The translations under genes were made by a program, and so were the position numbers. This document shows, in pieces, positions 6,662 to 21,211 of a stretch of 30,789 nt of DNA. How positions within the stretch are numbered: the stretch's first letter is position 1; every line of letters starts with the position of its first letter. The stretch is from a virus. The stretch is taken from IMG/VR virus record IMGVR_UViG_3300006926_001416, positions 1 to 30,789 of that record. One strand, given 5' to 3'. The notes under the pieces are model-generated. The model was not told the DNA's origin. It saw nothing but the letters and a program-made list of their open reading frames with translations, and ran no database searches.

Positions 6662-8007
6662 AAATCAAACCCTAAACAAATATTTTTTATAACATTAAAA
6701 TCGCTTTCACTTAAATGTTCCTTATAAGAACGTTCTTGAGAAAGATAAACATGATTAAATAGATGATAAAATTTATTCAAATCCGGATTGGTATAATTAT
6801 CAATAGTTTTATCTATACGTGTTATCCAATCAATATACGTTTTTCTATTATGTATTAGTTTATGTTCAATTATTTCAAGTTTTTCTTTAAATGCTGATAC
6901 TTCCCAATCTAAATATTTTTCTATTTGTGACCAAAAACCCTTTAACCTTATTAGAGGATTTTCTTCCAAATCAAAGCTGTAATCAAAAATCTCATCATAT
7001 AATTCAAATCCTAAATTTAATAAACTATGATTACTACCTTTTACACCTATAGAAATAAAAGGTTTTTCATATAAAAATTGCTTCCATGTTTTCTCAGTAA
7101 AATAAGTGGGCCCCGCCAAATAAGTTTCTAATACTACATCACAACAGGAGTTAAAACTTTCCACTGGAGGAAAGGTATTAAAAATAAGTTTATTTACTTC
7201 GATGTTATCGATAATCATCTTTTCTGAATTGTCACCTGTATGTTGTTCATTAATGTAACTCTTGGCCAATTCTAATTCATTAAGTAGTTTAAAATCTTCT
7301 CCTGCATCAAAGCCATTTTTAAATATATTTTCTTCGATATTTAGTAATTGTCCATTACAGGTCCCCATTGAAAACCAAGCAGGCACATTCCAATGGTTTA
7401 GGTGACCACCGTGGTGATGAAATTGAGGAACATAAGAATACTCATAATTCTTATGTGTGTAGTAACGGTCAACCGTTGCTAATCTTGGTGTGGCAGGAGA
7501 ACATATTAATTGACAAAAATTTTTTGTTTTTTTATTTTTTTTTAATTCATCAAGATGTTCTTGAAGGTAAGAGGGGTACCGTTTTGAGTAAAGAGAATCA
7601 ACAAGACCTCTTACAGTAAAAGGAAAACATAATACCTTACATTTTTCTTTAACTCCTATTTGTTTACACCATTTTGAATATCTTTCTTTTATATTTAAAT
7701 CTGAACACAAAAACCAAACATCATATTCATGCTTATATAAAATTTTATGTATTTTAGAAAATAAACGATACCTAAGCGAATCATCATCATCGCAACCGGT
7801 AATAATACCAAATAATTCTTCACGTTCCACGGGATCATCTTTAATTTCAAGTAAGCCTTCAATATAAGAAGAAGAATCTAATGGAAAAAGTCTAGATCCT
7901 TCTGGTAGATCATAAAGAAGTATAGAATCTTTTTCAAATTTTAATTCATATGCTTGAAATAATAATTCAGGATTGAGAATAATTGTATCTAAATTAACTG
8001 TTATCAT
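6658..8007 (-). CDS. Conserved phage protein with glycosyltransferase-like C-terminal motif
   Basis: A 449-residue protein not assigned to a named family. Around residues 300-345 it has VVLETYLAGPTYFTEKTWKQ followed by KPFISIGVKGSNHSLLNLGF. A segment of this kind (xxTEKTxK...KPFI.xG...L..LGF) recurs in phage and marine proteins near fucosyltransferase- and exostosin-like glycosyltransferases. A short aspartate run (GCDDDDS) lies near residue 72. Residues around 49-62 (starting IEGLLEIKDD) are encoded by a 42-bp stretch found again exactly at 29789-29830. It is probably a sugar-transfer or cell-surface protein. It overlaps the upstream exonuclease gene by 14 bases. Confidence 0.7.
   Translation of the reverse strand: MITVNLDTIILNPELLFQAYELKFEKDSILLYDLPEGSRLFPLDSSSYIEGLLEIKDDPVEREELFGIITGCDDDDSLRYRLFSKIHKILYKHEYDVWFLCSDLNIKERYSKWCKQIGVKEKCKVLCFPFTVRGLVDSLYSKRYPSYLQEHLDELKKNKKTKNFCQLICSPATPRLATVDRYYTHKNYEYSYVPQFHHHGGHLNHWNVPAWFSMGTCNGQLLNIEENIFKNGFDAGEDFKLLNELELAKSYINEQHTGDNSEKMIIDNIEVNKLIFNTFPPVESFNSCCDVVLETYLAGPTYFTEKTWKQFLYEKPFISIGVKGSNHSLLNLGFELYDEIFDYSFDLEENPLIRLKGFWSQIEKYLDWEVSAFKEKLEIIEHKLIHNRKTYIDWITRIDKTIDNYTNPDLNKFYHLFNHVYLSQERSYKEHLSESDFNVIKNICLGFDL
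7822..7863. repeat. Exact 42-bp repeat, copy A
   Basis: These 42 bases are identical to 29789-29830 in the same orientation and the same reading frame. They encode the 14 residues IEGLLEIKDDPVER in both places, but the genes on either side are otherwise unrelated in length and sequence. Confidence 0.95.
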
Positions 8008-20121: not shown

Positions 20122-20802
20122 ATGGATAAACCCGCATACATACAAAACTCAACTGTCGGCTATAAAAATATGTCGTTCAAAGAAAGTATAGAATTTCATT
20201 TCTCTCATCCATACCCATCACCACCGAATTACCTCCTCACCGTAGGACCAAATTCTAAACTGACAAAATCTTGTCAAGAAACTTTTGATGGACCGTATTT
20301 AACATTTGATTCTATAAAATGGAATGACATCTTTGTAATAGATATGAAAATTGAAGCATTTCTTACAGGATTCGCACAAAAAGTATTAAACAAATCCATA
20401 TTCAATAAGCATGGAGAGCTTCAATCAAATCAAAAACTTCTTATTCAGTTACATGTCGGTCAAAGCCACGAGGAGTCTGAAAAAATAATTCAAGAAGCAT
20501 TTGATTACTTCAATCAAATAAATTCTGCTGTGATTGAACAATTCCAAATTCACAACCGCAAAAAAATAATTTATCTTGAATATATGATCTTCGATGATCA
20601 AACAATTTATCTAAACCTATTAACAAATATGAAAACAGATATGTTTTATGATATCGAAATTCATACCGTACATAAGCTCACCTCCCCCTACTACCCCTAC
20701 ACACATCTTCACACTATAATTGAAAAATGGAGTGTCCGACAGTATTCGAACCTGTATGGTCATTGGCAGTGGATCTTCCGTGGCGGTCCCAATGGGATTT
20801 GA
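20122..20802 (+). CDS. Unknown protein, the only convincing plus-strand gene
   Basis: A 226-residue frame starting MDKPAYIQNSTVGYKNMSFK. Its body reads as a genuine protein (KIEAFLTGFAQKVLNKSIFN, KLLIQLHVGQSHEESEKIIQ) but matches no family I know. A TATAAT sits one base before the first ATG, so translation may start at the ATG at 20170. The last 23 or so codons run antisense through a decayed tRNA and into the 3' end of tRNA-Asp, so the natural stop seems to have been lost. It is divergent from the lipoprotein gene. Confidence 0.55.
   Translation: MDKPAYIQNSTVGYKNMSFKESIEFHFSHPYPSPPNYLLTVGPNSKLTKSCQETFDGPYLTFDSIKWNDIFVIDMKIEAFLTGFAQKVLNKSIFNKHGELQSNQKLLIQLHVGQSHEESEKIIQEAFDYFNQINSAVIEQFQIHNRKKIIYLEYMIFDDQTIYLNLLTNMKTDMFYDIEIHTVHKLTSPYYPYTHLHTIIEKWSVRQYSNLYGHWQWIFRGGPNGI
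20728..20780 (-). pseudogene. Decayed tRNA 3' part, Gly(GCC)-like
   Basis: Directly after the CCA of tRNA-Asp the minus strand continues with a D-loop-like GGAAGATCC, a CTGCCAA anticodon loop, GGTTCGAAT, an acceptor half CGGACAC, discriminator T and CCA. The 5' acceptor and D-stem are missing, the anticodon stem is poorly paired and the T-stem has a G-A mismatch. It reads as a truncated tRNA-Gly(GCC) left by a deletion between two adjacent tRNA genes. Confidence 0.6.
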
Positions 20803-20858
20803 ACCCATGTTGCAGGATTGACAATCCTGAGTCCTAGGCCTAACTGAACGATGGGACC
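20781..20858 (-). tRNA. tRNA-Asp (GTC)
   Basis: Cloverleaf on the minus strand: acceptor GGTCCCA/TGGGACC, anticodon stem CAGGA/TCCTG around the loop TTGTCAA, T-arm GGGTTCAAATCCC, encoded CCA. Confidence 0.95.
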
Positions 20859-20869
20859 ATTAAAATAGC

Positions 20870-21058
20870 AAGGGGCAGGCTTATGCGTAGCTCTGAGCTT
20901 ATTCCACGCTCCCCATACCCCTCATAGCACCTGTATCCTCGAGTTCCGTCTGGCATGTTCACGCATCACAAGGAGCGCAGTAGCTGGTCAACTCACTCGT
21001 ACAAGTGGTTAGCTAATCGTTAAAATCCGTGGGGTTGCCCCCAATGTTGTATAACAGC
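20870..21058 (-). ncRNA. Structured RNA in the tRNA block (unknown class)
   Basis: This GC-rich stretch between tRNA-Asp and tRNA-His has no credible reading frame but strong pairing. It holds a 5-bp stem with a GCAA tetraloop (21030-21043) and a nested hairpin closed by 20981-20985 with 21011-21015. A 6-bp helix pairs 20907-20912 with 20972-20977, and a further 6-bp helix pairs 20883-20888 with 20961-20966. The last two would cross, giving a pseudoknot. In T4 the tRNA cluster likewise holds two stable RNAs of unknown function (species 1 and 2). I see no tRNA-like arm as in tmRNA. Confidence 0.55.
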
Positions 21059-21134
21059 ATTGATCCATAGAATATAAATTATATTTTTCCATAACCATGC
21101 TTCTATTATTCCTGTTCCCATATTTCATTTTTAT

Positions 21135-21211
21135 TGGGTTGACGGATGAGAATCGAACTCACAACCATCAGAATCACAATCTAATGCTCTACCAATTGAG
21201 CTACCGTCAAC
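21135..21211 (-). tRNA. tRNA-His (GTG)
   Basis: Minus-strand cloverleaf with acceptor TTGACGG/CCGTCAA, anticodon loop TTGTGAT and T-arm GAGTTCGATTC. The His-specific extra G at -1 (21211) faces discriminator C, followed by CCA. Confidence 0.95.

Follow-up and report, generated by a model that had tools for sequence, protein, structure and literature searches.

A covarying three-way-junction RNA in the tRNA block of a T4-like marine phage recurs in very different marine viruses

The virus record analyzed here, a stretch of 30.8 kb (30,789 nt) that we call the window, can be assigned to a T4-like marine phage, since it encodes an exonuclease of the T4 RNase H type that is matched best by those of cyanophages, pelagiphage HTVC008M and Methylophilales phage Melnitz. 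All five tRNAs and nearly all genes of the window lie on the minus strand. Along this strand, with tRNAs called by ARAGORN, tRNA-His (gtg; 21135-21210) is followed by a 33-codon ORF (21020-21121), a structured RNA core of 150 nt (20866-21015) and, 7 nt downstream of the RNA, tRNA-Asp (gtc; 20781-20858). The G+C content of the locus is 51-55% (53% in the RNA core), compared with about 25-35% in its surroundings, in line with the high local GC on which a sequence-only reading had drawn when it proposed an unclassified structured RNA at 20870-21058. One end of that span holds; the other is about 40 nt off, the RNA running from 21015 to 20866 on the minus strand. A promoter for the RNA was looked for in the window and none was identified; the motif of the T4 late type is no commoner than expected by chance.

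Fused behind tRNA-Asp is a remnant of tRNA-Cys of which only the 3' half is left (T arm, acceptor and CCA; 20715-20780, minus strand) and which is 95% identical over 44 nt to an intact tRNA-Cys(gca) in contig L003 (12000-12074); contig L002 has the same remnant. The plus strand, opposite to nearly all genes, carries an ORF at 20122-20802 (3' end provisional). It is probably a real gene, since a similar plus-strand ORF exists in contig L128 (4010-4651).

The 33-aa ORF upstream of the RNA encodes a membrane-protein-like sequence (MGTGIIEAWLWKNIIYILWINAVIQHWGQPHGF) and lies outside the RNA, its stop codon ending 4 nt before the RNA begins. It is under purifying selection, with pN below pS in 15 of 15 pairs. 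The stretch had been described as free of genes, which is true of the RNA core, but positions 21058-21020 belong to this ORF. A GCAA tetraloop had likewise been counted as part of the RNA; the segment in question, GGGGGCAACCCC (21042-21031), instead consists of the last codons of the ORF (WGQPH) and is not conserved in most relatives (it reads GGGACAAACC in L002). The wider family of the ORF (L129-L158) comprises membrane-like proteins of 29-60 aa that are widespread in marine phage contigs, share the motif W-W...HW(G/D)(Q/K)PHG and have no PHROG match. A functional tie between the RNA and the small membrane ORF was considered and rejected, as most members of the ORF family occur without the RNA.

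The RNA core begins with UAGC (21012-21015) and ends with GCUA (20866-20869), and these two strands form P1, the helix that closes a three-way junction. RNAalifold recovered P1 de novo, but covariation lends the helix no support, as nine of the 10 sequences share it unchanged. The first arm of the junction is built of P2, a purine-rich internal loop, P3 and P4, and the second of P5, P6 and an apical loop. P2 pairs CACUUGUA (21000-21007) with UACAGGUG (20928-20935) and has changed on both sides in five of its eight pairs, while P3 (GAGUU, 20990-20994, with AACUC, 20941-20945) has done so in all five. P4 (UGCG, or UACG in relatives, 20976-20979, with CGUG, 20960-20963) was found de novo by RNAalifold on a sequence-only alignment and shows little variation; above it stands a variable hairpin. 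In P5, AGGGGUA (20916-20922) pairs with UGCCCCU (20871-20877), extended by GG (20914-20913) with CC (20879-20878), and six of nine pairs have changed on both sides. P6 joins GCGUGG (20904-20909) to CUACGC (20885-20890), with both sides changed in three of the five pairs counted and 6 bp in the RNAalifold structure. A further mini-hairpin, P7 (GCU-CAG-AGC), is doubtful, RNAalifold favoring the 6-bp P6 with a 13-nt loop.

This apical loop (AAUAAGCUCAGAG; 20891-20903) is near-invariant in members of structural type A and altered in L004/L128 and L171, from which the conserved P3-loop motif (GACCAGCUACUGCG; 20976-20989) is missing. A loop-loop contact between CCAGCU of the P3 loop and AAGCUCAGAG of the apical loop is suggested by a single observation: seven sequences retain both the P3-loop motif GACCAGCU and the apical AAGCUCAGAG, and in L004/L128 and L171 both are altered or missing. 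The pseudoknot that had been considered likely comes down to this suggested contact.

The fold is established by comparison. Across 10 sequences, standard pairs make up 95.5% of the cells, and 20 of 34 pairs have changed on both sides, compared with 8.5 upon shuffling and 2-5 upon sliding the partners, with the reservation that some pair counts come from model-fitted alignments and lean towards structure. Sliding the partners by 1-3 columns reduced pairing to 28-48%. The covariation score in the 10 sequences was 0.503 versus 0.213. Three checks were independent of the model: folding of single sequences by minimum free energy (MFE), a sequence-only alignment, and a covariance model (R1) built without L004. 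Unaided MFE folds match the architecture in L002, L003, L004 and L147, and the single-sequence fold of L171 agrees for P2, P3, P5 and P6. RNAalifold, run on a plain MAFFT alignment of seven sequences, recovered P1-P6, with 13 of 38 pairs changed on both sides, and R1 detected L004 at 66.8 bits (E 1e-15, model E-values being rough). The energy of single-sequence folding is not significant (z -0.31 over 212 nt, -0.48 for the core); folding one sequence alone would thus miss the RNA, and it is the comparative evidence that carries the claim. An ordinary folding energy is also what a functionless chance GC-rich stretch or a decayed tRNA would show, yet we give such an origin scarcely any credence, as it is refuted by the covariation and the RNA is retained across unrelated phages.

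The G-U pairs of P2, P3, P5 and P6 are compatible with the minus strand only, and we assign the RNA to that strand for this reason. The nested hairpins that had been noticed are real and lie on this strand, which is that of the tRNAs and of nearly all genes. An RNA on the plus strand was rejected, its single-sequence energy being no better and the conserved G-U pairs favoring minus. Among homologues, sequence identity falls to about 40-46% with pairing retained: marine viruses of very different kinds share the shape of the RNA but not its sequence. The compensatory base changes seen between independent homologues mark it as a new structured RNA family.

The family comprises 12 contigs including the window (11 further ones) and 10 distinct sequences; L146 and L147 carry the same RNA, and the loci of L163 and L164 are identical. 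L002, L003 and L004 were reached via a neighboring SprT-like protein and L014 was added by a DNA pattern. L128 (PAAV01000009.1) was added from a genome collection, where this phage contig is binned, probably wrongly, in a Chloroflexi MAG (NAT137); among 151 Chloroflexota genomes, the RNA was found only on this previously known contig. A second covariance model, R2, applied to contigs bearing the small ORF, found the RNA in another phage (L146/L147) at 124 bits, a search of whole records yielded L162, L163 and L164 at 79-88 bits, and a third model, R3, added L171 at 47.6 bits, the noise level being 12-13 bits. Weak R3 matches at 12-13 bits (L120, Cr30 and second sites in G036/G037) were taken as noise, and the 21 matches of a relaxed three-block DNA pattern (L018-L038) were all chance coding sequence. 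A methyltransferase neighbor led to about 80 contigs, none of which had the RNA. When compared by BLAST with 50,697 phage records, the cores from the window, L002, L004 and L147 and the intergenic region of L163 gave chance matches only, and the window core gave nothing more when E. coli genomes were searched. Because the viral collection was searched by exact patterns and protein neighbors, sampling of the family is certainly incomplete. Its known lineages number four or five, every member is an uncultured contig, and none of the cultured phages tested carries the RNA.

The genomic surroundings of the RNA differ between lineages. The order tRNA-Tyr (Ile), small ORF, RNA and tRNA-Asp is common to L002, L003 and L004, and in all six contigs of the window's clade the RNA begins 4 nt past the small ORF's stop codon. 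In L147, the RNA is preceded by a small CxxC ORF, the stop codon of which, UAG, supplies the first three bases of the RNA; a ribonucleotide reductase and a primase-like gene are nearby, and there is no tRNA. This abutment on stop codons would suit a cis-acting element, i.e., the 3' UTR of the small upstream gene or a leader or riboswitch for the gene downstream. However, many contigs have a member of the small-ORF family with no RNA adjoining it, the upstream gene is a different one in L147, and in the large phages L162, L163 and L171 it lies 73-94 nt from the RNA. Downstream, too, what comes next varies: a tRNA, an ORF at a distance of about 40 nt in L147, or, in L163, another 590 nt of ncRNA-like sequence. 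No single constant class of downstream gene, as expected of a riboswitch or cis leader, was found, the neighbors varying by lineage. A cis-regulatory role is disfavored because there is no constant partner gene, and we regard it as unlikely.

In L162, L163 and L171, the RNA occupies the same position in an intergenic cluster of ncRNAs, with an ORF of 82-83 aa on one side and an HTH protein on the other (this name, like those of the ribonucleotide reductase and the primase-like gene, comes from reading the sequence and not from a family search). A second conserved RNA-like hairpin is located just upstream of the RNA and on its strand (about 1430-1480 in L162 and L163, about 1450-1505 in L171); it has a covarying stem of 11-12 bp and an invariant loop, CUUCCAUCUCUCUCGCCGCC, and its pyrimidine run could pair with nearby GAGAGAG motifs. 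A further conserved block, the third, spans about 150 nt downstream of the RNA (about 1690-1840 in L163, and the corresponding part of L162), closed by the stem CGAGCAGAGT...ACTCTGCTCG and without an Rfam match. In addition, CTATAGAGAG occurs four times in L163 (1480, 1844, 1877 and 1911), confined to the ncRNA-rich intergenic stretch; the copies resemble promoter starts of a phage RNA polymerase or processing sites.

Proximity to tRNAs is also variable. The spacing between the RNA and tRNA-Asp is only 5-12 nt in the window's clade, and the nucleotides of the junction are invariant, as is typical of catalytic or binding cores; both features could be reconciled with a ribozyme-like spacer through which the tRNA precursor is processed or cleaves itself. 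We nevertheless deem this very improbable, as Rfam gives no ribozyme match at E <= 5 (nor was a known catalytic core of a self-cleaving ribozyme found) and the tRNA is absent from at least three contexts. In L147, L162, L163 and L171 the context of the RNA is tRNA-free, and half of the lineages have the RNA away from any tRNA.

Comparison of neighboring sequences points to exchange of the RNA itself. The window and L014 show 99% identity in the core, whereas identity between their SprT genes is 84%; L003 and L004 agree at 94-96% over the 100 nt before the RNA but at 42% over the first 100 nt of the core; and L004 and L128 have cores identical over 128 nt, with only 34% identity in the preceding 50 nt. 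Judging by these alignments, the RNA is swapped as a cassette, independently of its neighbors. Sharp borders of this kind, an HNH endonuclease-like ORF just upstream of the RNA in L147, and the start of the RNA at stop codons in two contexts could also mark a mobile or selfish element, such as the remnant of an intron, an IS-linked RNA or a homing cassette, with no function for the phage. We find this improbable: the position is constant in L162, L163 and L171 even though the L171 core is only 41-45% identical to the other two, compensatory change maintains the structure, no adjoining transposase, intron or inverted ends were seen, and in these phages the small ORF and the tRNAs undergo the same kind of shuffling.

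No known RNA accounts for the family. Rfam 15 has no match to the RNA, either at the gathering score or at E <= 5: searches of the window, of 20690-21140 (the one run at E <= 5) and of the homologous loci (L002-L004, L147, L162/L163) returned only tRNAs and chance matches. The proposal of an unclassified structured RNA within the tRNA block is thereby borne out, given also the strong covariation in homologues; the sequence-only reading had named a match to a known trivial element and a lack of covariation as the outcomes that would speak against it, and neither was found. It had also likened the placement to that of the T4 stable RNAs. T4 RNA C (139 nt) and RNA D (119 nt), which are classed as late RNAs (PMC9697503) and whose roles are unknown (PMC3014915; PMC9697503), are indeed similar in size and in their location in the tRNA block of a T4-like phage. 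The likeness does not extend to homology: R1, R2 and R3 found no match in the whole T4 record, RNA C and D included; RNA C folds in another way and terminates, on the 3' side, in a hairpin resembling a tRNA T arm, which the RNA described here lacks; and this RNA, unlike RNA C and D, occurs also away from tRNAs. T4 RNA C corresponds to L042 1909-2047 (minus strand), its T-arm-like hairpin being CCGGGUUCGAAUCCCGG, and its fold is far more stable than that of shuffled sequences (z -4.6). The covariance models likewise found no match in the whole records of KVP40, P-SSM2, S-PM2, S-WAM1, S-CREM1, HTVC008M and Melnitz, with Cr30 at noise level.

Marine T4-like phages encode other structured RNAs as well. 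The two-piece (permuted) tmRNA of Melnitz and pelagimyophages (PMC9004378) has a tRNA-like domain, whereas the locus studied here has none, no ARAGORN call and no Rfam tmRNA match; a tag-like reading of the 5' part (GCU AAC CAC UUG UAC GAG UGA) was rejected, as the tRNA-like domain is absent. In the distantly linked contigs L008-L013, ARAGORN called permuted two-piece tmRNAs, e.g., at 7548-7962 (plus strand) in L008, with the tag ANNNDYY(P/S)AQVALAA; the intervening segment in L008 could encode a membrane peptide of 27 residues (MDKVLTWFFTLTLLGMGIAWFYLNYSM). The cis-regulatory Rfam motifs manA, wcaG and glnA also come from marine T4-like phages (PMC2864571), but the present RNA has neither an Rfam match nor a constant downstream gene. 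We found no paper describing this RNA in a literature search that was not exhaustive.

The reading we favor, and hold to be probable, is that of a trans-acting, phage-encoded structured ncRNA of about 130-165 nt that targets some component of the host or of the phage in the course of infection. Trans action is preferred because the neighbors differ: the small ORF and tRNAs in one context, a CxxC ORF without tRNA in another and an ncRNA array in a third. The RNA would most likely be co-transcribed with the tRNA block, its 3' end being set where RNase P cuts in front of tRNA-Asp, and the released RNA would persist as a folded three-way junction. Its working surface would comprise the junction strands UAGCUAA, UUAUG/CUAUG and UGCUA and the purine-rich internal loop between P2 and P3, to which type A members would add the two conserved loops. 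The binding partner of such an RNA would probably be a protein or ribonucleoprotein, of the host or of the phage, for which it would serve as a decoy, an inhibitor or a scaffold. More tentatively, the family may represent a new class of effector RNAs, exchangeable cassettes passed among different marine phages that capture or block a host machine (for example, a defense nuclease, RNA polymerase or a ribosome factor), with the A, B and C types fitted to their hosts.

Because its shape is kept in very different marine viruses while its sequence is not, this previously uncatalogued RNA is probably a working tool of infection. Stable RNAs beside the tRNA genes of T4 have been known, and their roles have stayed unknown (PMC3014915), partly for want of a comparative family. 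For the RNA family described here the fold is proven, the invariant positions are defined, three structural types and swaps in nature are known and a calibrated model is available, and with it the question of the binding partners of such RNAs becomes directly testable.
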